The notes under the pieces were generated by a model. That model saw only the letters and a program-made list of their open reading frames with translations, searched no databases and had not been told where the DNA came from. Shown piece by piece: positions 9,960 to 28,803 of a stretch of DNA of 40,708 nt. Made by a program: the position numbers and the translations under genes. Source of the DNA: a bacterium (GTDB lineage: Bacteria > UBP6 > UBA1177 > JAKLFG01); NCBI GenBank assembly GCA_029573155.1, contig JAKQHE010000252.1, forward strand, positions 1 through 40,708, in the 5' to 3' direction. Position 1 is the stretch's first letter. Each line of letters begins with the position of its first letter.

Positions 9960-11258
9960 TCAACCATCGATCGACCACTCTCCCCTAACCATTACAAGAG
10001 CACCGATGTCGCCGCTCATGGCCCTACCTGTACGGTAAAAATCACCGGGGAGGATACTGAAAACACCCACCGGTTCCCGAAGATAGTCAGACTCTATGCC
10101 GTCGGCTAGCAATCGCCCCCTGATCCAGACAGAACCAGGCGAGAGAGGGAGGTCTCGTATCAAACAACGTACTATCATCTCTGCCCCGGCATCTATTGCG
10201 AACAATTGGTCCTGATAGGAACTATATAAGACAAAGAGTCTCTCCTCCAAAGAGCTGTGGAACGAAAAACCGAGATCAACCGCTCTCTTTTTCCTTGATC
10301 TATTCCTTAAGGTAAAAACGAACACCGCATCATCTCCGGTGAAAACAGAGGATATCCCTGTCTTCCCGTTACTTTCGATATGAAAAGCAGAAAAGATCAC
10401 ATCCCTTGTCCCCGACCTATCGGTTATTTCTCCGAGATCGTTCTTTATTTCGATGTCATTCATGTGCATGTAGGTCTCTATAGCCTTCTCCGTCGGTGCA
10501 TCGACAGCGATGCACCCATGTTTCAGCAGGAGACATCTTCCGCACAAATTCCTCACCGCCGCCATATTGTGACTCACGAAGAGCACTGTTCGTCCCTCTT
10601 TCTTGCTCACATCATCCATTTTGCCAAGGCATTTCTTCTGGAATTCGGCGTCGCCGACGGCCAAAACCTCATCAACCACGAGGATCTCAGGGTCAAGATG
10701 GGCCGCGACCGCAAAGGCAAGGCGGACATACATGCCGGAAGAATACCGTTTGACTGGCGTGTCGATGAACTGCTCGACCCCGGAAAAATCTATTATCTCG
10801 GTGAGTTTCCGGTCTATCTCCCGCTTCTTCATCCCGAGGATGGCGCCGTTCATGTAGATATTCTCGCGCCCGGTCAGTTCGGGGTGGAAGCCGGTACCGA
10901 CCTCCAGCAAACTGCCGATACGTCCTTTTATCTTCACACACCCCGATGTCGGCGCCGTGACGCGTGACAGTATCTTGAGGAGCGTCGATTTCCCTGCACC
11001 GTTCTTGCCGATGATGCCGAGCACTTCTCCCTGCTTTACCTCGAACGACACATCCTTCAGCGCATGGATGATGCCATTCTCGTCGGCGAATTGCTCCATT
11101 TTTTTGCGGCGGCCGCCATCCACCGGCAGATTGGGGTCATCTTTGCCCCTTCGGCGGGCCCACCACGATTGCAGGTCGCGCTGGAAGGTACGGTGAGTGA
11201 TAGCGCCTATCCGATATTGTTTTGAGAGGTTCTCTACCGAGATCACCACATCGGACAT
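9960..11258 (-). CDS. wzt: Polysaccharide ABC exporter, ATP-binding subunit (Wzt/TagH type) with C-terminal domain
   Basis: A 432-residue ATPase of the ABC-2 polysaccharide export class. Walker A is GKNGAGKST (84-92), the signature YSSGMYVRLAFA follows, and Walker B is ILVVDEVLAVGD. An N-terminal insertion (residues about 20-62) before the ATPase core is common in TagH/Wzt proteins. Residues about 265-432 form an extra beta-rich domain of the Wzt C-terminal kind, which in E. coli O9a binds the modified end of the O-chain before export. Its presence suggests chains finished in the cytoplasm, which fits the methyltransferases downstream. It pairs with the permease one base upstream. Confidence 0.93.
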   Translation of the reverse strand: MSDVVISVENLSKQYRIGAITHRTFQRDLQSWWARRRGKDDPNLPVDGGRRKKMEQFADENGIIHALKDVSFEVKQGEVLGIIGKNGAGKSTLLKILSRVTAPTSGCVKIKGRIGSLLEVGTGFHPELTGRENIYMNGAILGMKKREIDRKLTEIIDFSGVEQFIDTPVKRYSSGMYVRLAFAVAAHLDPEILVVDEVLAVGDAEFQKKCLGKMDDVSKKEGRTVLFVSHNMAAVRNLCGRCLLLKHGCIAVDAPTEKAIETYMHMNDIEIKNDLGEITDRSGTRDVIFSAFHIESNGKTGISSVFTGDDAVFVFTLRNRSRKKRAVDLGFSFHSSLEERLFVLYSSYQDQLFAIDAGAEMIVRCLIRDLPLSPGSVWIRGRLLADGIESDYLREPVGVFSILPGDFYRTGRAMSGDIGALVMVRGEWSIDG

Positions 11259-11259
11259 G

Positions 11260-12123
11260 CTACACCGTATCTATAAAGGTTCTTTCCACGCGATTAAAAA
11301 AGAACAGCCCGATAACGAGGAGCAAAAGCGTTACCGCAATCCCCGTGCCGAAGACCGACAGCGGTGGCAGAGCCGTACCGAAAAAGATATGCTTGAACGA
11401 TTCCATCGCGGGGATGATGGGATTCAATGAATACAGCGTTTGCCATCTTTCCGGCACAAGCGAGACCGGGTAGACTATGGGGGAACCGTAGAGCCACAAT
11501 TGCATGAGGAACGATAACCCCACCTGAAGATCACGATAGCGGGTGGTGAAAGCGCTGATGATAAGCCCGACGCCGAATCCAAGTATCGCGACATAGGAAA
11601 GCGTCAGGGGGAACAGAAGTATCGTCCAGTTAATGGCGCTTTTCATGCCGATAACAAGATAGAAAACATACAGTGCCGCGAACAGCACGAACTGTATGGC
11701 GAAGCGGCCGAGACCCGCCACGACCTGCGCTATCGGCACGACCAACCGGGGAAAATAGACCTTGGAAAAGAGATGGACATTGCTGATCAACACCGATGAG
11801 GTCTGGGTAAGGATGCCCGAAAAGTAATTCCAGACGATAAGCCCCCCCATATAGAAAAGCGGCTGGGGCACGCCATCGGTCGGTATATTGGCGATCTTGC
11901 CGAAGACCACGAGGAACATGGCGGTGGTCAGGAGCGGCTGGATGAGGAACCATGCGGGACCAAGTATCGTCTGCTTGTATTGCGTGATAAAATCGCGCTT
12001 GATGAACAGGGCGATAAGGTCGCGATAGACCAGAAGTTCAGCGATATCAACAAGGCGACGATCCCGCACCGGCGTAATGACCGTCGTCCATCGGTCCGGA
12101 GCGTCGCTTCCCTGCATCATCAT
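11260..12123 (-). CDS. wzm: Polysaccharide ABC exporter, permease subunit (Wzm/TagG type)
   Basis: A 287-residue integral membrane protein with about six transmembrane segments (for example TTAMFLVVFGKIANI and LLLLVIGLFFFNRVERTF). The N-terminal RDLIALFIKRDFITQYKQTILGPAWFLIQPLL is the conserved amphipathic start of ABC-2 exporters of O-antigen or teichoic acid. Three consecutive ATG codons begin the ORF and GAGGAG lies nine bases upstream of the first. It is the first gene of the twelve-gene polysaccharide operon and has its own promoter inside the end of the pilin gene upstream. Confidence 0.93.
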   Translation of the reverse strand: MMMQGSDAPDRWTTVITPVRDRRLVDIAELLVYRDLIALFIKRDFITQYKQTILGPAWFLIQPLLTTAMFLVVFGKIANIPTDGVPQPLFYMGGLIVWNYFSGILTQTSSVLISNVHLFSKVYFPRLVVPIAQVVAGLGRFAIQFVLFAALYVFYLVIGMKSAINWTILLFPLTLSYVAILGFGVGLIISAFTTRYRDLQVGLSFLMQLWLYGSPIVYPVSLVPERWQTLYSLNPIIPAMESFKHIFFGTALPPLSVFGTGIAVTLLLLVIGLFFFNRVERTFIDTV

Positions 12124-12157: not shown

Positions 12158-12186
12158 AGTATAGCAGGGAACTATTGATGGTGCAA
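12158..12186 (-). promoter_or_regulatory. Sigma-70-type promoter for the polysaccharide operon
   Basis: On the minus strand TTGCAC (12181-12186) and TATACT (12158-12163) are separated by 17 bases. The -10 box differs from consensus at one base; the -35 box is weak. Transcription would start near 12151, about 28 bases before the wzm start codon. The -35 box overlaps the last codons of the second pilin gene, so the pilin module and the export operon are probably separate units. Confidence 0.6.
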
Positions 12187-12651
12187 GTCTTTCGTAGTGT
12201 TCATGCAAGCCCCCTCCGTCCAGTCGTCGGGGACCATAAGAACATCCCTCGGGATGGCACTACCGATGCCGACACCCGAGACGACACCAGATCCGCAACT
12301 AAAGGTCAGATCGTTGTGCGCGTTGAATATCCAGTACTTGCCGTCCACATTCTCATAACTCTTCGTCGCCATCACCGCTTGTGTGATGGCTTCTCCGTTG
12401 TTGTATGTCTGGAGGGAGGTGGTCCACTGCAAGGTGCCTATGCGGGTAGCGTAGTGATCGGTCCGCCCTCCGTCGGGATCCTCCCAGAAGACGAACTGCG
12501 CCTTCGCTATCTCCTTGAGCATCTCGGGGACCTCGATGGTGCGGGCTTTTTTGGTGTAGTCGGCGTACATCGGGATGGCGGCGACCGCAAGGATGGCGAC
12601 AATGGATATCGTTATCATGAGTTCAAGCAGGGTGAATGCCTTAAAAGACAA
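12172..12651 (-). CDS. Type IV pilin-like protein, second copy, TTG start
   Basis: A 159-residue prepilin-like protein. The leader would be MSFKA, followed by the processed helix FTLLELMITISIVAILAVA with Phe at +1 and Glu at +5. The residue before the cut is Ala instead of the usual Gly. The start is inferred as TTG because AGGAGG lies six bases upstream; the ATGs at the ORF's end would give a leader of more than 20 residues. It is a paralogue of the PilA-like protein at 14616-15113: both share [22 protein letters not shown], a EDP-GG stretch and a C-terminal VP-DW--GACM. Likely a minor pilin or a second major subunit. It closes the pilin module. Confidence 0.85.
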   Translation of the reverse strand: MSFKAFTLLELMITISIVAILAVAAIPMYADYTKKARTIEVPEMLKEIAKAQFVFWEDPDGGRTDHYATRIGTLQWTTSLQTYNNGEAITQAVMATKSYENVDGKYWIFNAHNDLTFSCGSGVVSGVGIGSAIPRDVLMVPDDWTEGACMNTTKDLHHQ

Positions 12652-12708
12652 CCGGATCCTCCTACTGTTATCTTTCACTAAGCAATCATCATTCCGCCGG
12701 ATCATCAT

Positions 12709-14604
12709 CTATATCGGGTCGGGGAGCGCATCGATCCTCTCCTCCGTCTCGCGGGCGCGAATCATCTCGCGACGCCAGTGGTCGACATCAAGCCCCGGAG
12801 TCACCGAAACAAGCTGTAAGTGTTCAGAAAAACGGATGTTCGCCGCCGGGATATCGAACCGAAGAAGCGTTTTCTGAAGTCGTTCCGATATCGCGGCCCG
12901 GCGATCGGGGGGTATCGCCGCGTCGCCGACCATCCGTTCCCATATCGGGCGCAGTTCGACCCCGATCCCGGCATCCGCAAGCGCATCGACCCATGACGGG
13001 TCATCCGGGAAACGGTCCCGGCGAAATTCCTCGCACCGCGTAGCCATCTTTTTGGCGAACCGGGTCGCCACCGCATCAGGGACACTCGCGGCGACGGCGC
13101 GGGCCCTCCCGCAATCACCGGCTACGAGATGAAGCAGGGAAACATGAGCCGAGGCGGAGAGCGAAAGGGCGCTCCTCGCGCCGAATTCACCGTAAAGCAG
13201 AAGCGCCGCGCGATGGTCACCTTTTACGATATGGTAATTGATGAGATTGCCGTACAACGACGCGTCGCGGAACCCGGTATCCCACGCCCGTCGGTAATAG
13301 CGGAACGCGCGGTCGGGGAAGCCCGCTTCGAGATAGAGCGCCCCCATGGTATAGAGTCCCCGGAACGATACGGGGCGCCAGCGGCTGTCGGCGATGAGCA
13401 CCGTGTGGATATCGTGCATCTCCCCTACCCGTGCCAGCGACTTGATCGCGAACAGGACCGCAACGAGCGCGCAGAGCAGGGCGATGACCATGACACGCCG
13501 CGAGGCCGAAAAGATGGCGGTGGTCGCACCGGCCTCGAACGGCGCCGCGCACTCGCCGATGAGACCGGCGACGCCGACGAGCGGCAGGTAGAGATAGTGA
13601 TCGGCCGCTATCTCGTGAAGCGGCACGATCTGGAGGACCGGCAGAAGCGTGACGAGGAAAAAAGCCATGAAGAAGGAGGCCGGGCGGTATCCCTTACGGA
13701 ACAGGAGGACCGCGACCGTTATGAACAGGCCTGCTCCGAGAAGCGAGGCCGCGAATTTCATGTTCAGTGAGGTCACCAGCGGATAATTGGCATTGTCGAG
13801 AACTAGTTGCAACGGAAAGAGACTCTGTTTCAGGTAGTAGGTGAAAAGCGTCGGCGCCGTCAGGTAATGGGTCAGCGGATCGCCGCCGTGAAAGGAGGGT
13901 CGCAGGCCGTGAATGAGTGCGCTCCCGCCGCCCGTTATCGCCAAGAGCCCGAGGATACCGGTCAGCGTCACCCCCGCCACACCCCAACGCAAAAGGCGCG
14001 ATCCGGAGCACTTTTCGTACTGCCACAGGTAGAGCAACGCCACGAGCGGTAACATTGCTGCCATCTCCTTGGCCAAAAAACTGAACAGGCCGCAGACCGT
14101 AGCGCCCAGCAGGAACAGCGGTCGCCGCCGCTCGACCGCCACCACGAGAAACAAGAGTGCCGTCACGAAGAAAAGGGAGGTCAGGATGTCGCGGCGTCCC
14201 GATATGTAGGCGACCACCTCGGTATTGATCGGGTGAAGCGCATAGAACGACAGTGCGACGAGCGCCGCGAAGGGCGAAGAGGAAAGTCGACGGAACAACA
14301 TCCAGAGCACAGAGAGCATGCACAGGTGGTAGAGGATGTTCATCGCCCGGAACCCAACTGGGCTTTTACCCAAAAGCAGATGGTCGATCGCGAAGGAGAC
14401 GGTCCGCAGGGGACGATAGGCGTGCAGAAACGCGGGGACCGCGGGGGTCGTCACCAGATCGTTCTCTACGGTGAGCGCGCGATCGTCAAAGATAAAGTCG
14501 TTGCGCAAAGAAGGAAGATACAGAAGGACCGTGACAAGAAAAACAAATCCAAGAACTAAAAAAAGGGGGAGGCGCAAGCGCCCCCCCCCAGCAGAAAGGA
14601 ACAT
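12709..14604 (-). CDS. TMTC/PMT-like polytopic glycosyltransferase (GT-C) between two pilin genes
   Basis: About 631 residues. The N-terminal two thirds are membrane segments. The luminal first loop carries RNDFIFDDRALT, then AYRPLRTVSFAIDHLLLGKSPVGFRAMNILYHL and ALHPINTEVVAYISGRRDIL, the pattern of TMTC-type O-mannosyltransferases and bacterial relatives. The C-terminal 200 residues look helical and TPR-like. The start is uncertain: ATG 14604 has no clear ribosome site, and a TTG nine codons inside follows a run of G. The first codons overlap the terminator of the upstream pilin gene. Location between two pilin genes suggests pilin glycosylation (inference, by analogy with Pseudomonas TfpO, which is encoded next to pilA). 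Confidence 0.8.
   Translation of the reverse strand: MFLSAGGGRLRLPLFLVLGFVFLVTVLLYLPSLRNDFIFDDRALTVENDLVTTPAVPAFLHAYRPLRTVSFAIDHLLLGKSPVGFRAMNILYHLCMLSVLWMLFRRLSSSPFAALVALSFYALHPINTEVVAYISGRRDILTSLFFVTALLFLVVAVERRRPLFLLGATVCGLFSFLAKEMAAMLPLVALLYLWQYEKCSGSRLLRWGVAGVTLTGILGLLAITGGGSALIHGLRPSFHGGDPLTHYLTAPTLFTYYLKQSLFPLQLVLDNANYPLVTSLNMKFAASLLGAGLFITVAVLLFRKGYRPASFFMAFFLVTLLPVLQIVPLHEIAADHYLYLPLVGVAGLIGECAAPFEAGATTAIFSASRRVMVIALLCALVAVLFAIKSLARVGEMHDIHTVLIADSRWRPVSFRGLYTMGALYLEAGFPDRAFRYYRRAWDTGFRDASLYGNLINYHIVKGDHRAALLLYGEFGARSALSLSASAHVSLLHLVAGDCGRARAVAASVPDAVATRFAKKMATRCEEFRRDRFPDDPSWVDALADAGIGVELRPIWERMVGDAAIPPDRRAAISERLQKTLLRFDIPAANIRFSEHLQLVSVTPGLDVDHWRREMIRARETEERIDALPDPI
14558..14589 (-). 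terminator. Strong Rho-independent terminator after pilA, inside the next gene's 5' end
   Basis: Read on the minus strand, a run of G and GCGC (from 14589) pairs with GCGCCTCCCCC, with one G-U pair and a CUUG tetraloop at 14575-14578, followed by seven U (14564-14558). It lies 27 bases past the pilin stop codon. The same bases encode residues about 6-16 of the GT-C protein, so the T run is also Phe-Leu codons of its first membrane helix. Confidence 0.85.
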
Positions 14605-14615
14605 TCGACGGGAAA

Positions 14616-15113
14616 TTAGTAGTGGATCAGGCTCAGGCTGTTCCCCATGCACGCGCCATGCACCCAATCATTGGGAACCTGCGCGGAATTGATCGGAAAA
14701 CCGACGCCGATACTGGCAGCCGCGGTGATGTCGGATGTTGATCCACAACCGCCACCAACGGCATTCTCGCCCGCATTGCCCGACGAATACGCAAAGAACT
14801 TACCGCAGGCGTAGACATAGGTCGCGCCTGAAATAGTGGCACCCGCCGAACAGTTCGTCGGCGCAGCGCCGCTGGTGTTCAGGTTGGTCTTCCAACCGAT
14901 CGAACCGATGTTGTCGGCCCAGCCACCGTTACCGCCCTGCGGGTCTTCACGGAAGGCGATCTGCTGTTTCACGATCTCTTTGAGTGAGCCGGGCACCTCG
15001 GAGGTGCGCGCCTTCTTGGTGTAGTCGTTGTACATCGGGATGGCGACGGCCGCGAGGATGCCGATGATCGCGATAACGATCATGAGTTCGATGAGCGTAA
15101 AGCCTTTCTTCAT
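14616..15113 (-). CDS. Type IV major pilin-like protein (PilA-like)
   Basis: A 165-residue class III prepilin: leader MKKG, cut before Phe, then [20 protein letters not shown] with Glu at +5. The C-terminal part is Gly/Ser-rich and has four cysteines (in NCSAG, YACGK, GGCGS, GACMG), so disulfides are likely. AAGGAG precedes the ATG at good distance. The short leader and hydrophobic helix mean processing by a prepilin peptidase (PilD) not in the window. A sigma-54 promoter precedes it and a strong terminator follows. It could be a T4P subunit or a T2SS-type major pseudopilin; the promoter type favours T4P. Confidence 0.92.
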
Positions 15114-15184
15114 TTGGTCTCTCCTTCTTTCAAACCATTAATAAGCCACGAAACACGCACGGTGTTTTCTTCGGTGCCATAATA

Positions 15185-15201
15185 AGCAACGAGCGTGCCA
15201 A
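15185..15201 (-). promoter_or_regulatory. Sigma-54 (-24/-12) promoter of the pilin gene
   Basis: On the minus strand the sequence TGGCACG-N4-TTGCTT fits the sigma-54 consensus TGGCACG-N4-TTGCA/T at every fixed position, with GG at -24 and GC at -12 and the obligatory spacing. Transcription would begin near 15174, about 60 bases before the pilin ATG. pilA is sigma-54 dependent in several Proteobacteria. No enhancer-binding activator is in the window. Confidence 0.82.
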
Positions 15202-15212
15202 AAAAAGGCGCA

Positions 15213-16205
15213 TCATCTACGGGCGATCGAAATAATTGTTTTTCCTCCACGATTATGGATAATTATCGGATAATAGTCGGCCCGCTCGGCCGTGCCGCGC
15301 AAAAAACCGACGATATCTTTCATGGTGCGCGCCCCGAAGGCCTGCCCCCGGAATCTCCTCACCAGATGGGCCATCGCGGCGGCCCAGAAACGGTCGGACC
15401 GCGAGAGGATCTCTTCGCGGGAGAGCAGATACCGGAAAGATCGTGGCGATGCACGACGCATATCCCAGAAACTATCGAGCGCCACACCGACGACATCATC
15501 GTAACCATACGCGATATCAGATAGTTGTGCGACATGCTCTCCCACCGAGGATCCCAGGGTCTTCTCAAGGAACGGTATCACTTTGTGGCGGAACAGATTG
15601 CGGCGGATGGCGGTATCGGTATTGGTCGCGTCCTCTACCCATCTTTTCCCCTGCATGAAGTCCTGTATTTCCTTACGCGAGAAAGAAAGTAACGGCCTGA
15701 CATAACTTATATTTCCTCGCATCAAGAGATCGGATATGCCCATAAGCCCTCGCAGGCCGCTCCCCCGGTCGAGGATACGCATCAGGACCGTTTCCACCTG
15801 ATCGTCACGGTGATGGGCCGTCAGCACATACCGGATGCGCTTTTTTTTCGCTATCCTCTCAAGTATCCGATATCTCTCGTTTCTTGCAATCTCCTCCCTG
15901 TTCCCCTTTTTTTCTTTCCAGAGATCTGCGGGTATCTCCTCAACAGAACACGCGAGACCATGCTTCTGACAAAAATTGTCAACAAAACGCGCATCGCGTC
16001 GGGAATCTTTTCTCAAATTGTGGTCTATATGGGCAACGACCGGGGTCACCTGCAGTTCGGAACTGTTTTCGAGGAACAGATGCAACAAGGCCATTGAGTC
16101 GAGTCCACCCGAAACTGCTAGAAGCACTTTTCGACCAAGTATCTGGGGAAACTTTTTTTTCACATGACGAACGAATCGCCATCGAAGCGGCGGGACCGAC
16201 ACCAT
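15213..16205 (-). CDS. tilS: tRNA(Ile)-lysidine synthetase
   Basis: A 330-residue enzyme that attaches lysine to C34 of the CAU-anticodon tRNA(Ile) so that it reads AUA. The PP-loop SGGLDS is at residues 32-37, and LTAHHRDDQVETVLMRI and VRPLLSFSRKEIQDFM are family motifs. The start at 16205 has GGAGG four to five bases upstream; ATGs further out are possible. The C-terminal domain is short, as in the compact TilS forms. It ends immediately before the sigma-54 promoter of the pilin gene. The upstream region (16206-16347) is shared with the divergent membrane-protein gene. Confidence 0.93.
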   Translation of the reverse strand: MVSVPPLRWRFVRHVKKKFPQILGRKVLLAVSGGLDSMALLHLFLENSSELQVTPVVAHIDHNLRKDSRRDARFVDNFCQKHGLACSVEEIPADLWKEKKGNREEIARNERYRILERIAKKKRIRYVLTAHHRDDQVETVLMRILDRGSGLRGLMGISDLLMRGNISYVRPLLSFSRKEIQDFMQGKRWVEDATNTDTAIRRNLFRHKVIPFLEKTLGSSVGEHVAQLSDIAYGYDDVVGVALDSFWDMRRASPRSFRYLLSREEILSRSDRFWAAAMAHLVRRFRGQAFGARTMKDIVGFLRGTAERADYYPIIIHNRGGKTIISIARR

Positions 16206-16313
16206 ATGCCCTCCGGTCAAAAACATCTTCCCCTTGCCAAGACCCAACCTCTATACTCAAATGAAGAACAAAACAATTTTTCCCGCATTTTTCCCATATT
16301 CGCTCGTCAAAAT

Positions 16314-16347: not shown

Positions 16348-17829
16348 ATGTGTAGGATACCCCCCCTCCTCCTCAAATGGATCGGTATCGTTACCATCGG
16401 AGCGATATTCTCCTGCGCGATACTCTTCCGCCTTATCTTCCTTGACCACATACCCGGGCTGAACGGCGACGAGGCATGGTACGGCATACAGGCGCTCAAC
16501 CTCATGTATGGCCGCCCACTGGAATGGATGGCCCCTTCCGGCAGACCGCTGCTCAACTTCTTCTTTTTCATCCCCATATTCATCCTGCAACTTTTCTGCG
16601 AACCAGCATTCTGGATACTTCGCTTCCCTTCCGTCATCGCCAGTATTATCGCCATCTTCCTCTCGTATCGCCTGTTTCTCGACATTCTCGGTCGTCCTGC
16701 GGCGATATCGCTTGCGCTCCTCACCGCCACGCTTCCTATCAACATCGCCTACTCCCGCTTCGGCTGGGATCCCAGCCTGCTTATCGTCTATGCCGTGCTG
16801 ATCATCTATTTCTCTTTTCGCGGCAGTTTGAAGGGGGTATTGATCTCGACGCTGTTGGGCTTGACGGCGCATCCAGTGATCATTTTCCTCGGCCCCGTCG
16901 TCGTCATGACGGCGTTGACACAGAACGGCTCCGCGCTGTTGCCCTCCCACCCTCTTCAGAAAAAGATCGGGGCGGTGCTCATACTGACCTGCATCATCGC
17001 CGTGGCGGTCTACGCCGCGGGCATTGAAGCGACCACCCATCGTCTCTCAACACCACAGGATGCGTGGCTCTTTCTCTCGCTCATCGGCGGACTTTTCTCA
17101 GGAGAGACCGTGTACCGTTATATTGTTGATCCGGCAACCACTCTTGCCATCCTTGACCCCGCCTCGATAGGCGCAATACTCGCCGTCCTGTCGGCGATCG
17201 CCTTCTGGCGTATTTCTTCAAAGACATCTCAGATAGGGGCACTCGCCTTCCTCTCCGGCATCTTTTTCGCCCTTCTGTGTGGGTATCTCATGTTCGGCCC
17301 CTGGTTGCTGCTCCCTCACACCGAACGGTACGGAATCTATCTGGTGTTCCCCCTCACCTTGCTTTTCGTCATCATCCTGCACGGTGCCTTTACCGCCGAG
17401 CGACAACACTGGCCGGTAGCCATCGTCATGGCCCTTTCGCTTTCCCTGCTCGCCGGCTTCCATCGCCACTATCTTCAACCCATCCGCGAGACCGGAGGCA
17501 ACTCTCAAATCGCATTCAGAACCGGAGTACTGGACCCGAAACAGGTGGCCTATCTCGGCATACTCGATGAGACGCGGGGACGCCCCGTTCGTATCTTCGC
17601 ACACCAGTGGTGGATCTGGCAACCGCTGAAATACCTTGCTTCGAAAGACCCGACGGTGGAGGTTATCGAACTGCGGGAGTTCAGCAGGCCGATCAAGGGA
17701 GATTATGTCGTCACCTTCGCGGGGGAGCCACTTGACATCGTGGCACGTAAGGATCCCTCGACCTATGCGACGCGTTGGTCGGTGCTTGACTATGCCCGAC
17801 GAGAGGTCATCGCCGTTTACCGCCTATGA
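16348..17829 (+). CDS. ArnT/PMT-like membrane glycosyltransferase (GT-C), first tandem copy
   Basis: A 493-residue protein with about ten to twelve membrane segments. The first extracytoplasmic loop holds LDHIPGLNGDEAWYGIQA, with the acidic pair Asp41-Glu42 that is catalytic in GT-C (PMT/ArnT) enzymes using polyprenyl-phosphate sugars. GRPLEWMAPSGRPLLNFFFFIP and ILRFPSVIASIIA follow as in that superfamily. The short C-terminal soluble part ends RREVIAVYRL. Its stop overlaps the start of a paralogue by four bases (ATGA), so both copies are co-translated. The acceptor is unknown. Confidence 0.82.
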   Translation: MCRIPPLLLKWIGIVTIGAIFSCAILFRLIFLDHIPGLNGDEAWYGIQALNLMYGRPLEWMAPSGRPLLNFFFFIPIFILQLFCEPAFWILRFPSVIASIIAIFLSYRLFLDILGRPAAISLALLTATLPINIAYSRFGWDPSLLIVYAVLIIYFSFRGSLKGVLISTLLGLTAHPVIIFLGPVVVMTALTQNGSALLPSHPLQKKIGAVLILTCIIAVAVYAAGIEATTHRLSTPQDAWLFLSLIGGLFSGETVYRYIVDPATTLAILDPASIGAILAVLSAIAFWRISSKTSQIGALAFLSGIFFALLCGYLMFGPWLLLPHTERYGIYLVFPLTLLFVIILHGAFTAERQHWPVAIVMALSLSLLAGFHRHYLQPIRETGGNSQIAFRTGVLDPKQVAYLGILDETRGRPVRIFAHQWWIWQPLKYLASKDPTVEVIELREFSRPIKGDYVVTFAGEPLDIVARKDPSTYATRWSVLDYARREVIAVYRL

Positions 17830-19382
17830 ACAAAGAAAAAGTCTTCACCTCTTATTGCAGGGGACTAAAAAACACCTTCGGGAAAACCGTCATCACAAAC
17901 AAACGATCCCTTGACTTGGCAAGAAGGGCAAGCCTTACGATGATCTTAGGCATCTTCTTTTTCGCGATAGTTTTTCGCCTGATCGATCTCGACCATCTCC
18001 CCGGCTTTTACGGCGACGAAGCATGGTATGGCATACAAGCCGCCAACCTCATGCATGGGCGCCCCATTGAATGGATCGCTCTCTCCAACAGACCCCTTAT
18101 CAATATCTTTTTTTTTATCCCCGTATTCCTTTTGCAACTCTTTTTTGAGCCATCACTTTGGATACTTCGCTTCCCATCGGTCATCGCCGGGCTTCTTGCC
18201 GTGCTTCTTTCCTACTATCTCTTTCATAAGATCATCGGTCGTCCCGCGGCGATCTCGCTCGCGCTTCTGACCGCCGCGCTTCCCATCAATATCGCCTATT
18301 CCAGATTTGGCTGGGACCCGAGCATCATCATTTTATACGCGGTTACAATAATTTATTTTGCCCTTCGCGACAACTTAACGGGCGTACTGATATCAACATT
18401 GCTTGCGTTAACAGCGCATCCGACCGCCATATGTCTTTTTCCCATCGTCATCACCATAGCTCTCGCGCGGGAAGATTCTACCCTATTGCCCACCGGCCTT
18501 TTGCAGAAAAGAACCGGGGCGGCGATACTTTTGACCTGCAATATGATCGGAGCGATCTATGCAAGAACCCTAAACATCGCTGCCTTCCGCTTCCCTCCAG
18601 CGGAAGAAGAAGTCCCGTTCTTTCTAAATCTCGGCAGACTTTTTTCAGGCGAGACCACATATCGCCACATAGTCGATCTCTCAATTTCTCTAGGAGCAAC
18701 CGATTATTCCATATTGCTGGGAACGCTTTTACTTTTATCAGTATTCTTTTTTCGACATGCCGGCTCTACGCCAGACCAATTCGGAAAGATCCTCTTCCCT
18801 CTTGGTCTAGGCCTTCTTTTCTCTCTGTTGTGTGGATACCTCATGACAGGCCCGTGTTTTATCCTTCCCCACGCTGAACGATATGGTGTATATCTCATTT
18901 TCCCCTGTACCCTGTTCTTTGTTGTTCTTCTTCACGGCGCTTTTCCTATGTCAAAAAAATACTGGCCGATCGCCATTACCGTCATGCTTTCCTTTTTTCT
19001 CTTGATTGGTTTCCAGCATCATTATTTCTCTCCCCTCCATGAAACCGGAGGCAACTCCCACCTCGCATTCAGAACAGGGGAAAGAGAACTTAAACAATCA
19101 GCCTACTTCCATGTGCTTAAAGAGAGCGGCGGCGCTCCGATAAGAATATTCGCTGACGGGTGGTGGCTCTGGCAACCATTCCTGTATTTTGCCACGAACA
19201 ACTCTTCGGTTAGCATATTAGAGTTGCGAGAGTTCAGTAAACCCGTTAAAGGTGACTATGTTGTTACTTTTGCCGGGGAACGACTTGATCTGGCGATACA
19301 GAAAGAACCTGACTCCTATGAAAAGCGCTGGACGGAGCTCGATTATGCCGGAAGATCGATTCTAGCCATCTACCGCCTTTGA
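17826..19382 (+). CDS. ArnT/PMT-like membrane glycosyltransferase (GT-C), second tandem copy
   Basis: A 518-residue paralogue of the preceding protein, alignable over nearly its whole length. It has the same loop with GDEAWYGIQAANLMHGRP (Asp64-Glu65), the same SRFGWDPS and GGNSHLAFRTG segments, and the same end, ILAIYRL. It has an extra N-terminal stretch of about 23 residues. Its codon use is visibly richer in A and T than the first copy. Its 3' end overlaps the convergent YfhO-like gene by 21 bases. Confidence 0.82.
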   Translation: MNKEKVFTSYCRGLKNTFGKTVITNKRSLDLARRASLTMILGIFFFAIVFRLIDLDHLPGFYGDEAWYGIQAANLMHGRPIEWIALSNRPLINIFFFIPVFLLQLFFEPSLWILRFPSVIAGLLAVLLSYYLFHKIIGRPAAISLALLTAALPINIAYSRFGWDPSIIILYAVTIIYFALRDNLTGVLISTLLALTAHPTAICLFPIVITIALAREDSTLLPTGLLQKRTGAAILLTCNMIGAIYARTLNIAAFRFPPAEEEVPFFLNLGRLFSGETTYRHIVDLSISLGATDYSILLGTLLLLSVFFFRHAGSTPDQFGKILFPLGLGLLFSLLCGYLMTGPCFILPHAERYGVYLIFPCTLFFVVLLHGAFPMSKKYWPIAITVMLSFFLLIGFQHHYFSPLHETGGNSHLAFRTGERELKQSAYFHVLKESGGAPIRIFADGWWLWQPFLYFATNNSSVSILELREFSKPVKGDYVVTFAGERLDLAIQKEPDSYEKRWTELDYAGRSILAIYRL

Positions 19383-21665
19383 GCGACCGGACCGGGACAA
19401 CGGATACAGAAAAGCAAGCACGAAAAGCAACGACCAAGAAAGAAAAGCGGTCCACGCACCGATGGTGAACGAAAGCGGAGCATATTCAAGCAGGAGACGA
19501 TGGCTCCCGGCCGCGAGCGGTACCGCGCGGAAGATATAGTCGGCCGGCATGACCTCGTAGTCGCTCTGCGCGCTTCCCTCCAGCGGGGTCGCCCGCCAGT
19601 GCCGACTGTATCCGTCGGTCACCAGCAGTATCCGCGGAGAGGAAAGTTCGGCCTCGATGATCAGCGTATCGGTATCGCCACCCACCACTTTTACCACACC
19701 AGTCATCCCATCGGCGAGCGGTTTTATCGCAGGATCTTTTTCCAAAATAACGCTATGCCTTGGATCAAATGAGGTGTTGGTGAGCACCTTAAAGATATCC
19801 TCCTCCCGCCTGTGAACTTCGAAACGATCCACCAGCAGCACACGGGGTAGCGGTTCTCCTCGTACCTTGTAGCGCGTGACACCTCCCCTCTCCCATGCAT
19901 TCAGATACCGAAGCCTAAGCAGATCGGCGATCCGAGCCGGTCCCACCACGGAACCATCAGACAATAGAGTCCAGTAGGATGGAACAAAAAAGGTGTCCGA
20001 AAATCTCTTGTAACGATACAGCGCCACCTTGGTATTGTACCCATTGGCATCGTACAGACCATAGATCATCACCCGATTCGGCGCAAAATCACTGTATATC
20101 CTGTCATCGCCGAGTTCTCGGACATATGGCGCCTCCAGATCGGGAGAACGCATCTGTTCCTGCGGAAAGGTCCGGCCATAGGAGCGGGCGAAGAACAGAA
20201 GGTCCAACACCACAAGACACAGGATCGCGTAGAAAGCTTCTCTACGATAACGCATCGCGGCAACGAACAGGGCGATCAGAAGCAGTTTTCCGGCGACGCC
20301 GTAAAGCGACACTGCCGCGGATCCCTGCGCCCGCTCGATGAACGCCGCATCATTAAATATCGCCGGGTCACCGTACCACAAGAACCGACCGTCGCCGGGA
20401 CCCAGGGACCACATGAGGGCGCGCCATTCCTCAAGCGAAGCGGCATTGCCGACCGCATACGCCGCTCCGCCGGCGACCAAAGCTGAACCCGCGACGAGAC
20501 CGACGGTAAGCCACGAGGGACGCTCTTCCCGGAGTCGGAAGGCACCGCGCGCCATAAGCGGGACAAGCAATATCGTCGCGCCGAATATGAACTTGCCGTG
20601 TCCACGTAATTTGTTGAGGAACGGCACATACCGCGAGGTGACGGCGAACAGTGGAGTATGCGCTCCCAGCGCGATGAGCAGGACAAGGAACGCCGCCAAC
20701 GCCAAGAGTTTGCCGGACCGGTCGCGTATGCCGTAGATGATCAGAAAAAGAGAGCCAACACCCAGAAAGATCGACTGCTCCCAAAGATACTCTTTGCCCC
20801 AATACGGCACCGTATCCATATTGCCGAAAAAATCTGGGGCGATGAGAGTAAGAAGATTTTCGGGATGAAACGAAAAAGAGGCAAGGTACGAATCGGTCAG
20901 TGCGGAGCGATAGGATTCGGAAAGACCGTCAACCGCCGGGAAGGCCTGCGCCGCCCCCAGAAACACGCCGCCACCGTACCAGCAGAGTACACACCAGAGG
21001 GTCCGAACCTGTCGCCTCTCCGCAGCGAGGAATAGGGCATACAGCGCGGCGGCCGTCGCCGAAATGATGACATACTGCAGGTGGCCGGCAAGGAAAGACA
21101 TACCCGCCGCGAAAAGACCGGCAAAGAACCAGTTCTTTCGCCACTCCTCGGCATTCCGGTCAAGTGACAGGAGAAGAAGCGGGGTCCATGCGGCGGTCGA
21201 GAGGATACCGAGATGCCCGGCATAGGTGTGCATGAAATAGGCACCACCGAACATCGCAAGCGATCCCGCCATGAGCGAGACCACAGGGTCGTTCCCCAGT
21301 CGCCGGATCCACAGGGAGGTCAGGGTTCCCAAAAGCGTCAAGTGCAAGATCACCGAGGTATTGATCGCCAACGGCGTCGGCAGAAAAAGGAATACCCAGT
21401 TGAGCGGATAAAATATGCCCGTCTCCGGGTCCATAAGAAATGGGGCACCACTGTAGATATGCGGATTCCAAAGAGGTATGTTCCCGGCGAGCAATTCGCG
21501 CGCGGTGAAGCCCCGCATGTGGTAGAACTCGAGAAAAATGTCGGTGTCACCCGGCGAGATGATGCCGCCATCCCAGAGTCCGGCGCCAAACACCGCGCAA
21601 GCCATCGTCGCGAAAATCACGACCGTGGCCGATACGATAAGGGCGGGAAAAGCACATTCTCGCAA
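19362..21665 (-). CDS. YfhO-family polytopic membrane protein
   Basis: A 767-residue membrane protein with roughly a dozen helices and a C-terminal soluble domain, matching the YfhO family (GT-C-like fold; YfhO-type proteins are implicated in lipid-linked sugar transfer). Conserved segments include GDTDIFLEFYHMRGFTARELLAGNIPLWNPHIYSGAPFL in the first loop, LRGHGKFIFGATILLVPLMA and VTDGYSRHWRATPLEGS near the end. The start is TTG: GAGG lies eight bases upstream and a promoter 28 bases further, with no ATG near. Its end overlaps the convergent gene. Confidence 0.8.
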   Translation of the reverse strand: MRECAFPALIVSATVVIFATMACAVFGAGLWDGGIISPGDTDIFLEFYHMRGFTARELLAGNIPLWNPHIYSGAPFLMDPETGIFYPLNWVFLFLPTPLAINTSVILHLTLLGTLTSLWIRRLGNDPVVSLMAGSLAMFGGAYFMHTYAGHLGILSTAAWTPLLLLSLDRNAEEWRKNWFFAGLFAAGMSFLAGHLQYVIISATAAALYALFLAAERRQVRTLWCVLCWYGGGVFLGAAQAFPAVDGLSESYRSALTDSYLASFSFHPENLLTLIAPDFFGNMDTVPYWGKEYLWEQSIFLGVGSLFLIIYGIRDRSGKLLALAAFLVLLIALGAHTPLFAVTSRYVPFLNKLRGHGKFIFGATILLVPLMARGAFRLREERPSWLTVGLVAGSALVAGGAAYAVGNAASLEEWRALMWSLGPGDGRFLWYGDPAIFNDAAFIERAQGSAAVSLYGVAGKLLLIALFVAAMRYRREAFYAILCLVVLDLLFFARSYGRTFPQEQMRSPDLEAPYVRELGDDRIYSDFAPNRVMIYGLYDANGYNTKVALYRYKRFSDTFFVPSYWTLLSDGSVVGPARIADLLRLRYLNAWERGGVTRYKVRGEPLPRVLLVDRFEVHRREEDIFKVLTNTSFDPRHSVILEKDPAIKPLADGMTGVVKVVGGDTDTLIIEAELSSPRILLVTDGYSRHWRATPLEGSAQSDYEVMPADYIFRAVPLAAGSHRLLLEYAPLSFTIGAWTAFLSWSLLFVLAFLYPLSRSGRSKAVDG

Positions 21666-22893: not shown

Positions 22894-24576
22894 TCAGAAC
22901 ATCTCTTCGAGCAGTTCTTTTTGTTCGTTACCGAGGAACGGCTGTCGATAGAGCGTCATCAGCACTTCGCGATAAAAACCGCCTCTTTCGGCGGTATACT
23001 TTTTAAGCCTTTCAAGTTCTCCCGCCAACTCATCAAACCGCCCCGCCGCAACTGCCGCGCCGATCTCGCGCACATCGCTGTTCCAGCGGCTGATGATGCG
23101 GAACGGCATCAATGCGACCGTATCGCGGATGCGGGGAGATCCGTACAAGGCATACCGGTCGTCGAAATGATACAGCGCCCATCCCTCCGAGAGCAGTATC
23201 CGCTCCACATGTATCTCGTGGGTCTGATACGAAAGGATGTCGGGGCGACCAAGCACGATGTAATCGACCGGCAACGAAAGGACATGGTCCCGCAGATCCT
23301 TTTCATTGGTGACATTCCAATACCGGGAGGCGAACTCGTACGGATAGAGGCCCGGAACGCGGATGTCGACCGCCACCTTGACCCGCGGATAGGCATAGGC
23401 CATCAGGAAATCGGTGGAGCCCGAATAGATGCCGAAAAAATTCCCCGCGAGATCATGGTCGCGTATGAACTCGCCCGCATGCAAGGGGACCTTGTCGGGA
23501 TCTATGCCGACACCCCAATGATAGTTGAGTTGCTGCATCGACCTCACGCCGAGGGCCATCGCAACGGCAAAGACCAGCGCGTAGAGGAGCGGTCGCACCG
23601 GCGTACCGGGCATCCGCTCCGCGATGAGCGGCACCGCCAGTACACCACCCACGAGCGCAACATCGGCAGCGAAACGGGCATGGAGATACGCATTGACGAG
23701 CAGGAGCAGTGTCACAAGCGCATAAAAAGGCCTGGTACGGCGGCTTTCCCATACCGCCCAGAGCATGAGTGCGCTGAAAAGATAGAACAGTATATAATAC
23801 TGACTGTACCGAAGAGGCCCCAGCGAAAAGATAGAACTCCACTCATGGAGAGGATGCGGCCCGAACTGTAACGAGAGGTAATGCCCCGCGACCAGAGGTT
23901 GCGGGGTCGCGAAGACCACGGAAACGAGCCCGAACAACAGGAGTGCGGTCTCCTTTCCCGTCAGGTGTGTTTCGCGGGAAAGCCATCGGTCCGCGACCAA
24001 CACCGCGACAAGAAGCACCGCCAGTACCCAGGAGGGATGCGCGTTGCGCAGAAAGACCAGTATCCCCCAGAGCACGGCGGCGCGCCCCGACCTGATATCC
24101 TGCAGGGTCGTCGCGAGATAGACGACCGCGGCGATCAACAGATAGGCAAAGAATTGGGGTCGGTCGCTGACGCGCTGTTGCACCAGAAGAAATACCGTAA
24201 GGACCGAAGAGAAGGAAAGGAACAGGTCGCCGTCCGAAAGACGACGGAACAAAGCAAAAAGCACCAAGCAAAGCAGGAAAGCGGTGAGAAGACGGAAAAA
24301 GATGATACCGGCGGGACCGAGGTGCATCCACAGCAACGCCGAAAGGATATTGTGCGCCCATTCCCAGTTGACCCACGGCTGTCCGGCATGGGTGAAACTG
24401 AACATATCGGCATCAGGTATCCGGCGGTGTTCCAGCATGTCCAACCCCTGTGCGAGGTGGACCCAGAAATCACAGTTCGGTATAAGATATATCGTCAACA
24501 CCACACAGAACAAAAGAAAAGCCGTGCCGAGAAGGAGATACTGAAGGAAAGGCCTCTTCCCGTCAGAACTCGGCAT
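22894..24576 (-). CDS. Polytopic membrane protein, GT-C-like, DFWVH/HEW family
   Basis: About 560 residues and ten or more membrane segments. The first loop reads [43 protein letters not shown]. This belongs to a conserved but unnamed family with the pattern D-x-W-x-H-x3-G, P-D-x-D-x-FS-T, W-x-x-EW; such loops are compatible with a GT-C enzyme. Near the C-terminus [20 protein letters not shown] matches a second conserved segment. It is a paralogue of the protein at 26010-27704. The start (MPSSDGK) overlaps asnS by 14 bases and lacks a strong ribosome site; a GTG at 24609 is the alternative. Function unproven. Confidence 0.7.
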
Positions 24577-25954
24577 TCTTGGGTGTCCGGGGGAAAGGTT
24601 GGACATCACGGATATTGGTCATGCCGGTGAGGTACATGACGGCCCGTTCGAAACCGAGACCGAACCCGGCGTGCGGACAGCCGCCGAAGCGACGGATATC
24701 GAGGTACCACCAGTAATCTTCCTTTTTCAGACCGAGTTCTTCTATGCGGCGCAGAAGACGATCATGCCGCTCTTCGCGTTGAGAACCACCGATGAGTTCG
24801 CCGATGCCGGGGACGAGCATGTCCATCGCGGCGACGGTCTTGCCGTCGTCGTTCTGGCGCATATAGAAGGCCTTTATCTCTTTCGGATAATCGATGACGA
24901 ACACCGGCTTCTTGAAGACCTCTTCGGTGAGGTAGCGTTCATGTTCGGTCTGGAGATCGCTCCCCCACTCGATCGGATAGTCGAAGGTCTTTCCCGACTT
25001 CTTGAGCAGGTCTATCGCATCGGTATAGGTGACGCGGCCGAAATCGGATGATGCGACCTGTTCCAGCCGCTCGAGCAGCCCCTTGTCGATCATCGCGTTG
25101 AAGAACTTCATCTCTTCGGGGGCGCGCTCCAGCACGAAACGGATGATGAACTTGGTCATGTCCTCGGCCAGTCGCATATCCTCTTCGATGCCGGCAAAGG
25201 CGATCTCCGGCTCTATCATCCAGAACTCGGAGGCGTGGCGCGTGGTGTTGGAATTCTCGGCGCGGAATGTCGGACCGAAGGTGTATACATCGCGGAACGC
25301 CATGCAGAAATTCTCGACGGCAAGTTGGCCCGACACCGTCAGGTTGGTCTCCTTGCCGAAAAAGTCCTTCGAGAAGTCCACCTTCCCTTCTTCGGTGAGC
25401 GGCGGCGACTTCGGGTCGAGCGTGGTCACGCGGAACATCTCCCCTGCCCCTTCGCAATCGGATCCGGTGATGATGGGGGTATGGACATAGACGAACCCGC
25501 GGTCCTGAAAGAACGAATGGATGGCGTGGGCGAGCAGGCTTCGTACTCGAAACACCGCCGAGAAGGTGTTGCTGCGCGGCCGCAGATGGGCGATGGTCCG
25601 CAGGTACTCGAAGGAATGGCGCTTTTTCTGGAGCGGATAATCGCTGTCGCAGGCGCCGACGATCTCGATGGCGGTGGCCGCTATCTCGAACGACTGCTCC
25701 TTGCCGGGGCTCGCGACCACCGTGCCGGTGACGGCGATAGCGCTGCCGGTACCCAGTTTCGAGACCGCCTCGAAGTTGGAAAGCGTATCCTGAAACACTA
25801 TCTGGACACCTGAGAAGAACGACCCGTCGTTGAGTTCGATGAAACCGAGATTCTTCGACACGCGCAGGGTACGGACCCAGCCGGCGACAGAAACGGCAGT
25901 GTTCATACATTCGCCATGGCGTTTGAAAAGATCCTTCAGCAAGAGGTATGACAT
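24563..25954 (-). CDS. asnS: Asparaginyl-tRNA synthetase
   Basis: A 463-residue class IIb aminoacyl-tRNA synthetase. An OB-fold anticodon domain is at the N-terminus ([23 protein letters not shown]). Motif 2 is around [22 protein letters not shown], and motif 3 and the end read [34 protein letters not shown], diagnostic for AsnRS over AspRS. GGGGGAG lies five bases before the ATG. It has its own promoter in the end of the upstream gene and is followed, with overlap, by a membrane-protein gene, an odd partner for a housekeeping gene. Confidence 0.96.
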
Positions 25955-25989: not shown

Positions 25990-26017
25990 GTTATACCAGA
26001 GAACGACGATTAGTCAA
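25990..26017 (-). promoter_or_regulatory. Sigma-70-type promoter for asnS
   Basis: On the minus strand TTGACT (26012-26017) and TATAAC (25990-25995) with a 16-base spacer. Each box differs from consensus by one base. The -35 box includes the Val-Asp-stop codons of the upstream gene. The start point would be near 25983, about 29 bases before the asnS ATG. Confidence 0.72.
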
Positions 26018-27704
26018 CAGGCCCGTACTTGGCTATCTCGGCCCGCATGAGGTCATAGAGTTGCTGTTGTTCGGGTTGCCGCACGAGCGTCAGATAGTGG
26101 GCGAGTTCCCCCCGAAGGATGGGCAGATTGCCCCTTTCGACCACCTGCCGCATGAGTCGCTCGCTGGCAAGATTGATTGGGTAGAGCATCCGAAACGACC
26201 GTATCGCAGGATACCGTGCGATGACCTCCTCCTTCATGAACAGGGCCCAGTGCTGGTCGAAATAGACCAGTTCATACGGTGAAGGAGCAGCCGCAAGAAA
26301 CTCGGCGTCATGTCGATCAAGACCACTAATAGCAATATCTTTCACTATATAATCTACCGGATATTTCGTGACGATCTCAGAAAAAGACAATGACAGATAA
26401 TCTTTTATAAAATAAACAGGATAGACCTGCATGTCCCGACCATCGAAAAACACTTTTATTTCCGGCCAGGAGCGAAACATGAAGTAAGCGTGGAAAGAAA
26501 GATTGGTCGCATACAAATTGCCGGCAAGGCCTTTCTCTTCCATGAAGTCGGCCAACCATACCGGGTTCTTTGTCGTACTTACGCCAACCCCCCAATCTCG
26601 ATACATAAGTACAGTGCTTTCCGCCAGAGCGACCGCAAGAATTGCGTTAAGCATGACAACAGGGATCCGACGCAACAATCGAAGGTCGCGATCAAACAAG
26701 AATTCGGACAAATAATGGATCATGATCGGTAAGGAAATAATGAGAAATTCCGTCATGAAGCGACTGCTCCTGAACGGGAGAATCGCTACGATAAAAACCA
26801 AGAAGCCGTAAAAAGGTTCAGTTCGGATGATCCTCAAAGAAAAGAGTATCAGAAGCAGATAGTACGGGATCGTCACCGCAAAGAAGGGATGGAGCGAGAG
26901 CCAGTACAGATAGGATTTCCACTCATTGTTGTCAAGCACAAAAAAATGAGATAAAACGAAAGAAAGGGGTCCGTAAAAAAGAAGCAAGGTCATCAGGATC
27001 AAAAGAGAAGAGGAAATCGCTATCACCCGCCATCGGTATTGTCTGGCGAGACGCAACATGTCTTTCAGAAAGCGGATCCCGTCGCCCCACTTCCATCGCA
27101 GGTATCGGTCCCCTATCGTCGTTACCACCGCAACGACGCCAAGCACCCATGAGTAGTGGAAAAAAGACCACGCCGCGAAAAATAAAAGAGACTGACCAAG
27201 TAGTAACCAGCGATCCTTCCAGACAAGGGGACGCTGTAGCCGCCACACAAGCCCGGAAAGGAAGAGATATCCCAGAAGATGCGGTCTAATGGCTATGCGT
27301 ATTTGTATAACGAGCAAGATGAAAAATAACAGGGAAAAAGAAAAGGAAAGCGAAGGTGGAGACGCTCCGGCGCGAACTCGATGCTCTCGAACCGCGCCCC
27401 ATAGAAAGGCCACTATCCCGAATAATACCAGCCACCGGTACAGGAAGAAACCGACCGGCCCGGCGTAATCCCACACGAGTGAGATGAAGAGACTGAAACC
27501 CCACTCATGATTATGCCACGATGAACCCGCGTAAGTAAAACTGAACACATCCACATCGGGCACACGCATCTCAGCCCTTATCAGGCGCCCTGTGGCGACA
27601 TGCCACCAGTGATCATCGCACCCGATCTCGTGATAGGAAAGCACTCCTGTCACGAGCAGGGTGACGAAAAAGAAAATGATGAAAGCGTTACGACGGTTGG
27701 GCAT
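26010..27704 (-). CDS. Polytopic membrane protein, GT-C-like, WWH/HEW family
   Basis: About 564 residues with ten or more membrane helices. It has CDDHWWHVATGRLIRAEMRVPDVDVFSFTYAGSSWHNHEW in the first loop, the same family signature as the protein at 22894-24576, and a matching late segment (WPEIKVFFDGRDMQVYPVYF). The start at MPNRRN overlaps the upstream permease gene by 17 bases with no clear ribosome site; ATGs five and eight codons upstream (in the same frame) are alternatives. The middle of the gene is richer in A and T than its neighbours. Function unproven; membrane glycosyl transfer is possible. Confidence 0.7.
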   Translation of the reverse strand: MPNRRNAFIIFFFVTLLVTGVLSYHEIGCDDHWWHVATGRLIRAEMRVPDVDVFSFTYAGSSWHNHEWGFSLFISLVWDYAGPVGFFLYRWLVLFGIVAFLWGAVREHRVRAGASPPSLSFSFSLLFFILLVIQIRIAIRPHLLGYLFLSGLVWRLQRPLVWKDRWLLLGQSLLFFAAWSFFHYSWVLGVVAVVTTIGDRYLRWKWGDGIRFLKDMLRLARQYRWRVIAISSSLLILMTLLLFYGPLSFVLSHFFVLDNNEWKSYLYWLSLHPFFAVTIPYYLLLILFSLRIIRTEPFYGFLVFIVAILPFRSSRFMTEFLIISLPIMIHYLSEFLFDRDLRLLRRIPVVMLNAILAVALAESTVLMYRDWGVGVSTTKNPVWLADFMEEKGLAGNLYATNLSFHAYFMFRSWPEIKVFFDGRDMQVYPVYFIKDYLSLSFSEIVTKYPVDYIVKDIAISGLDRHDAEFLAAAPSPYELVYFDQHWALFMKEEVIARYPAIRSFRMLYPINLASERLMRQVVERGNLPILRGELAHYLTLVRQPEQQQLYDLMRAEIAKYGPVD

Positions 27705-28803
27705 TAGTGGGCGCATCGGCAGGGGCATTGTAGATGGCGCTCGCCTTGTACTTCTCGACGAAGTAGGTCCCGATGAGTTTCAGTATCGCGAAGGTCGGCA
27801 CCGCGACGAGCACACCGAGGAAACCGGCCAGTTCGGCGCCGGCGAAGAGCGCGATGATGACGAAGACCGGGCTGACGCCCACATTGCGCCCGACGATATT
27901 CGGAGTTATCGCGATCATGTCGGTCATCTGAATGACGGCGAACACGATAAGCACCTTGACGAAAAGCAGAGGGCCGCCGGCGCTGAGCGCCAATAGCGAC
28001 GCGACGATGATGCCGGTGATGATGCCGATGTATGGTACGAAGCAGAGCGTGCCGATGAGGATGCCGAGCGAGGCGCCGTCGGGCAGGCCGATGACCGTGA
28101 GCCCGAAGGCATAGAGCGAACCGAGCACGAAGCAGACGCCGAGTTGGCCCCGGATGAACCCGGCGAGCACCCGGTCGAACTTATGGAGCCACTCGACCAT
28201 CTCTTCCTTCCGGGCCGGAGGGAACAGGGAAACAAGCGCGTCATAGACCGCCGGGAGCCGGGTGCTCACAAAGAAGGTCACCACCGCGTAGATGAGCAGG
28301 TCCACGAGAAAGAAGAGCGCCGAGAAGGTCTGGCGGAACACCGTCCCCATGAACTGGGGCATCGATTGAAAACTCGGCACCACCGTGCCGAGCCGTTCGA
28401 GTAGCGCCTCTTCGGTGAGATTCTGGTATTCGCTGATGTTGATGCCGTTCTCGTACGCCTTCTCGTATACCCAATTGACGGTGGATACGGCGAGCAGCGG
28501 CAGTCGCTTCACCGCATCGGCGAGTTGCGCGAATATGGCGGGAAGTATCACGAAGACAAGGAGCGCGAGGAACAGGAGCGCCAATATCATGAGCAGGATC
28601 GTCGCCACGCTGCGCGGCAGGCGCATCCGGTTGTTCATGAAGGCGACGAGCGGCGATACGGCATAGGCGGTGAAGAAGGCGGCGAGCAGGATGGCGCTGA
28701 TGTGCGGCAGGAGTACGAGGATGAAGAGGAATATCAGAAAAAAACCGAGCGGTATCCAGCCCTTACGCTCGACAAAAAACGCGTATATCTTCTCTTGTAT
28801 CAT
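27688..28803 (-). CDS. AI-2E family (PerM-type) transporter
   Basis: A 371-residue inner-membrane protein with about eight helices. FILVLLPHISAILLAAFFTAYAVSPLV near the start and LIGTLCFVPYIGIITGIIVASLLAL, MTDMIAITPNIVGRNVGVSPVFVIIALFAGAELAGFLGVLVAVP in the second half are the conserved AI-2E/PerM family segments. Substrates for the family range from autoinducer-2 export to ion antiport, so the name is only a family label. The start is one base after the FecR-like gene stop, so it is co-transcribed with the secreted-protein genes. Confidence 0.9.
   Translation of the reverse strand: MIQEKIYAFFVERKGWIPLGFFLIFLFILVLLPHISAILLAAFFTAYAVSPLVAFMNNRMRLPRSVATILLMILALLFLALLVFVILPAIFAQLADAVKRLPLLAVSTVNWVYEKAYENGINISEYQNLTEEALLERLGTVVPSFQSMPQFMGTVFRQTFSALFFLVDLLIYAVVTFFVSTRLPAVYDALVSLFPPARKEEMVEWLHKFDRVLAGFIRGQLGVCFVLGSLYAFGLTVIGLPDGASLGILIGTLCFVPYIGIITGIIVASLLALSAGGPLLFVKVLIVFAVIQMTDMIAITPNIVGRNVGVSPVFVIIALFAGAELAGFLGVLVAVPTFAILKLIGTYFVEKYKASAIYNAPADAPTNAQPS

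Follow-up and report, generated by a model that had tools for sequence, protein, structure and literature searches.

A candidate pilin O-glycosylation cassette with a TMTC-like GT-C glycosyltransferase in an uncultured bacterial lineage

In a 40,708-nucleotide stretch of bacterial DNA (hereafter, the window), a glycosyltransferase gene of TMTC/PMT-like type lies directly 3' of the major pilin gene on the same strand, an arrangement kept in four related genomes (G001, G002, G004, and G022). Judging from sequence and gene order, we consider that its product probably O-glycosylates pilins (PilA and a minor pilin) in the periplasm, with a lipid-phosphate sugar as donor. In transcription order on the minus strand, pilA is followed by the GT-C gene, with its TPR tail, then by a second pilin gene, and then by Wzm and Wzt; the features are as follows.

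15213..16247, minus strand: tilS, the conserved upstream neighbor of pilA, given as context and not as part of the module (TIGR02432, E 7e-58)
15186..15200, minus strand: sigma-54 (-24/-12) promoter, TGGCACGCTCGTTGC, about 73 bases upstream of the pilA ATG
14616..15113, minus strand: pilA ORF, type IVa major pilin, 165 aa (N_methyl)
14553..14590, minus strand: Rho-independent terminator, proposed attenuator (11-bp hairpin and T7 run)
12709..14667, minus strand: middle ORF as listed, 652 aa (PMT_2)
12709..14589, minus strand: TMTC/PMT-like GT-C glycosyltransferase with TPR-like C-terminal helices, about 626 aa (PMT_2, motifs, Foldseek)
12172..12708, minus strand: second pilin ORF as listed (N_methyl)
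12172..12651, minus strand: second, likely minor, pilin (N_methyl; 43% identical to PilA; AGGAGG ribosome-binding site)
11260..12123, minus strand: Wzm-type ABC-2 permease for polysaccharide export (PF01061, E 1e-19)
9960..11258, minus strand: Wzt-type ABC ATPase (PF00005, E 4e-23; Wzt_C weakly matched)

The original prediction had placed two paralogous pilins around a membrane glycosyltransferase. All three ORFs are present on the minus strand at the positions listed, and the flanking genes are indeed paralogous pilins, with N_methyl matches at E 5e-9 and 4e-6, 43% identity, and a common C-terminal VPxDWxxGACM motif that also occurs in most pilins of the order. The longer version of the middle ORF overlaps pilA and crosses the terminator hairpin, and for this reason the GT-C gene probably starts at or after the TTG near 14589; the second pilin probably starts at the TTG near 12651, behind the AGGAGG. 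The sandwich of pilins is complete in G000, G001, and G004 and partial in G002 and G022, where both loci end at contig borders. Among named genomes, a near-identical locus is found on one MAG contig, JAKLFG010000016.1. Beyond tilS, in divergent orientation to tilS-pilA, lie two tandem paralogous GT-C ORFs of 493 and 518 aa (16348-19382, plus strand), with weak PMT_2 matches and, in one of them, a weak likeness to Agl23 (TIGR03663). They are followed by a 767-aa membrane ORF that matches no family (19362-21665, minus strand); farther on, an asnS-like gene is flanked by ORFs of 571 and 572 aa with no Pfam match (22894-24609 and 26010-27728, minus strand).

PilA has the leader GFTLIEL, Glu5, and the hydrophobic helix of a type IVa pilin, and its genome encodes PilB, PilT, and secretin machinery. 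Its profile picks up T4a major pilins, among them that of Myxococcus (PilA, 8tj2, E 4e-16), and its closest NCBIfam model is also that of Myxococcus PilA (E 7.5e-13, under the cut-off of that model). The Foldseek match to pilin 1ay2 (E 0.017) was not taken as strong proof of the fold. In the second pilin of the window genus, the residue predicted at position -1 of the prepilin is Ala (SFKA/FTLLEL) rather than Gly, which is present in the G004 copy. Such an Ala was seen only in second or upstream pilins, namely those of the window genus (12630-12651) and some of genus g4 (L063, L072, and L042).

The promoter and the terminator are additions that were absent from the earlier prediction. The near-consensus sigma-54 site before pilA (TGGCACG-N4-TTGC) is the sole match in the 40.7-kb window and did not arise in any of 100 shuffles; the second pilin has no site of its own. 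Equivalent sites precede pilA in G001, G002, G004, G022, and G014, as well as in G030, which belongs to an unrelated phylum. The terminator that separates pilA from the GT-C gene folds with a minimum free energy of -23.5 kcal/mol (z -3.1), and equivalents occupy the same place in G001, G002, G004, G022, G030, and G069. In Pseudomonas aeruginosa, pilA is driven by sigma-54. The pilin-accessory cassettes of that species carry a Rho-independent terminator behind the pilin gene, proposed to attenuate expression of the accessory gene (PMC11841053). Since the sigma-54 site, pilA, the terminator, and the accessory gene follow one another in the window, it has the Pseudomonas pilin-accessory layout, and the likeness is stronger than had been claimed, the promoter and the putatively attenuating terminator now being added to it.

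The wider pilus machinery is also encoded. Genome G000 has PilB/PilT-type ATPases and two secretins, and relatives carry a pilB-pilT-pilC-pilS-pilR operon without pilA (gene names assigned by ORF inspection), accompanied by PilD in G001 and G022. This operon content is consistent with PilSR control of the sigma-54 pilA promoter.

The TMTC/PMT-like nature of the middle protein, as originally proposed, is borne out by its motifs, by a PMT_2 match (E 1.3e-7, with no other Pfam family matched), and by structural matches to GT-C folds. The core TMTC/PMT motifs occur in order (DD35-36, Y58-R59-P60, R132xD134, and K174E175, compared with Table 4 of PMC7801869); across the order, DD is invariant and YRP, RxD, and KE are conserved. 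These four are among the seven motifs, M1 to M7, defined for TMTC proteins, and TMTC models place them where the ligand binds (PMC7801869). Full membership of the TMTC family was rejected: DUF1736 (PF08409) is absent from the enzyme, with no Pfam match at E<=5; M5 is DN, the DW being replaced in the clade of the window enzyme; and M7 reads DHxxY or VHxxY instead of ERxxY, with the arginine changed to His in that clade. For these reasons we call the enzyme TMTC-like, and its donor may therefore differ from that of TMTC.

The TPR-like tail noted earlier is also recovered, at residues 432-493 of the 652-aa ORF (phmmer to consensus TPR/CTPR proteins, E 7e-12). Pfam TPR matches on it are sub-threshold, and the array is short and degenerate. 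An AF2 model of the enzyme (pLDDT 76.5, moderate; residues 213-272 low) has STT3, AglB, PglB, Pmt4, and ArnT as its top Foldseek neighbors (E 8e-4 to 6e-2), and the modeled GT-C fold is support rather than proof of superfamily membership because the query-normalised TM-scores are low (0.32-0.39). A PDB sequence search with the enzyme or its profile returned TPR proteins alone among the matches listed.

Within the order, most of the genomes that have the GT-C gene carry one copy of it (G016 and G022 give split matches). The gene stands right behind pilA in family f1 (G000, G001, G002, and G004) and in G022, a member of genus g8 in another family that also shares the upstream order asnS-tilS-pilA with f1; tilS adjoins pilins in G004, G022, G008, and G011 as well. 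The expectation that relatives would keep the gene at their pilins thus held in f1 and g8 (five of the five genomes with the gene) and failed in genus g4, in which 13 genomes have the ortholog away from pilins. Invariable retention of the gene with pilA is thereby ruled out. In the three g4 loci read at length, the ortholog is flanked by a group of genes that includes ispF and by a U32 peptidase gene. The g4 pilins are found next to tilS, frequently as tandem copies, and each has a sigma-54 site of its own. The GT-C gene tree separates f1 from g8 plus g4 and so puts pilA linkage on either side of its root; the PilA-terminator-GT-C linkage is therefore most simply explained as ancestral to the order, with one loss (in g4).

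Other GT-C types abut the g4 pilins, a DUF6056 protein in G008 and a PMT_2 protein in G011. In G019 (locus L062, G019:C43, 6611-10174, minus strand), pilins in tandem that each have a sigma-54-like site are followed by a terminator and a gene for a 757-aa PMT-type GT-C protein, which makes it this cassette with another enzyme; the TMTC-like gene has no match in this genome, which is 77% complete. Such exchange of GT-C genes at the pilins of the order recalls the way in which TfpO and TfpW replace one another between Pseudomonas strains.

A comparable arrangement recurs in the phylum of G030, where a pilin gene, one or two TMTC-like GT-C genes, and the gene for the prepilin peptidase PilD follow on one strand in 6 of 12 genomes from two families, again with a terminator behind the pilin. 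We regard this linkage as an independent recurrence, distinct in origin from the gene order in the window. Two successive TMTC-like genes between pilin and PilD occur at L106, L110, and L111 (G063 and G064).

The main rival to pilin O-glycosylation is decoration of a polysaccharide: the GT-C enzyme would add side chains to the Wzm/Wzt-exported glycan after polymerization, in the manner of Gtr/GT136 enzymes. Adjacency to pilA could then be incidental, as the locus abounds in other GT-C and polysaccharide genes. Directly downstream are those for Wzm, Wzt, and an FkbM methyltransferase together with many GT1 and GT2 genes, and further GT-C ORFs lie at 16348-19382. Elsewhere, GT-C enzymes are known to add side chains to ABC-exported O-polysaccharides (PMC11127046). 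We nevertheless hold this explanation to be unlikely. Pfam scans revealed no dedicated pair of Und-P-sugar synthase and flippase, the accessory domain resembles a TPR rather than a carbohydrate-binding module, and the second pilin separates the GT-C gene from Wzm. In the second phylum, moreover, the partners are a pilin and PilD, and no ABC exporter was seen in the short loci.

Among the observations that count against a pilin substrate are the unlinked g4 ortholog, the position of most bacterial TMTC-like genes away from pilins, and, in the enzyme itself, the altered M5 and M7 motifs and the unmatched DUF1736. Genes of this family were found in 116 of 290 sampled bacterial genomes (E<=1e-45). 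At 97 sampled loci, 8 pilins adjoin a GT-C gene, 3 of them co-directionally, which rules out a general dedication of the TMTC-like family to pilins; most of the loci have no pilin neighbor. The association is still above chance (8 adjacent pilins observed versus 3.6 expected in a within-locus permutation over the 97 loci, p 0.003), although this p value is a guide only because the loci were chosen by score and take in the G030 locus that prompted the survey. Further co-directional neighbors from other families are found at L197 (G163) and L153 (G129). Several genomes have many TMTC-like paralogs, mostly off pilins (11 in G051, 15 in G056, and others in G105 and G220).

The enzyme might instead serve generally in protein O-glycosylation in the periplasm, with numerous substrates such as the many D/T-rich lipoproteins of the lineage, pilin being one among several. 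The retention of a single ortholog in the 13 g4 genomes despite its separation from pilins fits such a role, as does the breadth of the family; linkage to pilA and its sigma-54 promoter (f1 and g8) or to pilin and PilD (another phylum) argues that pilin is the chief substrate in those lineages, and we judge a general enzyme to be improbable, more so than polysaccharide decoration. A nonenzymatic pilin chaperone or accessory protein is very improbable, for although TfpY-type genes likewise stand behind pilA and a terminator and leave the pilin unmodified (PMC11841053), TfpY-like proteins are small, with three TM segments, and the DD, YRP, RxD, and KE motifs of the GT-C protein are conserved across the order.

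Pilin O-glycosylation is favored because a sigma-54 site, a pilin gene, a terminator, and then the accessory gene follow one another not just in f1 and g8 but also in a second phylum; because the core motifs are maintained across the order; and because pilA linkage is most simply ancestral and recurs independently in the G030 phylum. It also draws on the exchange of the enzyme at pilins in G019, G008, and G011, on the adjacency of TMTC-like genes to pilins above the permutation level, and on T4aP machinery whose pil operon lacks pilA in relatives. In the mechanism that we infer, PilR and sigma-54 would drive strong transcription of pilA, with a leaky terminator allowing some transcripts to read through into the genes for the GT-C enzyme and the minor pilin. 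The enzyme would reside in the inner membrane and expose its TPR domain and the catalytic loop with the DD motif to the periplasm, which the globular head of PilA would also face before assembly. Sugar from a polyprenyl-phosphate (or polyprenyl-PP) carrier would be attached through O-linkage to Ser/Thr residues of PilA while it is still in the membrane, and probably of the minor pilin too, with the TPR domain helping to hold the protein substrate.

For the broader proposition that TMTC-type O-glycosyltransferases are recurrent, independently recruited pilin modifiers of uncultured phyla, housed in sigma-54/terminator cassettes in which the GT-C enzyme is swappable, we see the balance as even. 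Bacterial TMTC-like proteins are common, and no assigned substrate was found for them in the literature searched; linkage to pilA at the levels of order and phylum now offers a testable one. If true, pilin glycosylation, which serves in phage escape in Pseudomonas, would be widened to new phyla. The original prediction held TMTC-type enzymes acting on type IV pilins to be little described, and this agrees with our search for pilin together with TMTC, tetratricopeptide/GT-C, or GT39, which found none in the open-access literature, most subscription journals lying outside its scope. The kind of cassette is already known, and a TMTC-type enzyme within one appears to be undescribed in the open-access literature searched.

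Eukaryotic TMTC1-4 are O-mannosyltransferases for cadherins, and the pilA linkage suggests a bacterial precedent for O-mannosylation of that type. The window enzyme resembles TMTC1-4 in having DD, YRP, RxD, and KE in order, a multi-TM N-terminal half, and a TPR C-terminal half (PMC7801869). It differs in its short, degenerate TPR, unmatched DUF1736, replaced M5 W and M7 R, and proposed substrate, a pilin. With the three-component Gtr/GT136 systems it would share a periplasmic GT-C enzyme and a lipid-linked donor, and it likewise lies near an ABC-exported polysaccharide locus (PMC11127046). Unlike those systems, it has no recognized synthase or flippase partners in the Pfam scans, carries a TPR in place of a CBM, and is linked to pilins. 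In Geobacter sulfurreducens, which has a pilA-spc pair, pilin genes similarly lie near an ABC polysaccharide exporter, that of the neighboring xap polysaccharide cluster. The locus numbers are GSU1496 for pilA and GSU1501 for xapD (PMC5585712).

The closest likeness, drawn from layout and description, is to the pilA-tfpW and pilA-tfpO cassettes of P. aeruginosa, in which a pilin gene, a Rho-independent terminator, and an accessory glycosyltransferase gene also share one strand; pilA-tfpW (group IV) encodes a GT-C D-arabinofuranosyltransferase, and pilA-tfpO defines group I (PMC11841053). The window enzyme differs from the P. aeruginosa enzymes in being TMTC/PMT-like with a TPR-like tail, and a second pilin and the Wzm/Wzt cluster follow it. 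The class contrast with pilA-tfpO that had been predicted stands as to the TMTC/PMT-like class and is smaller than had been stated, because TfpW, a closer precedent than TfpO, is itself a GT-C enzyme; just as the accessory enzyme varies by strain in Pseudomonas, the GT-C enzymes vary here.
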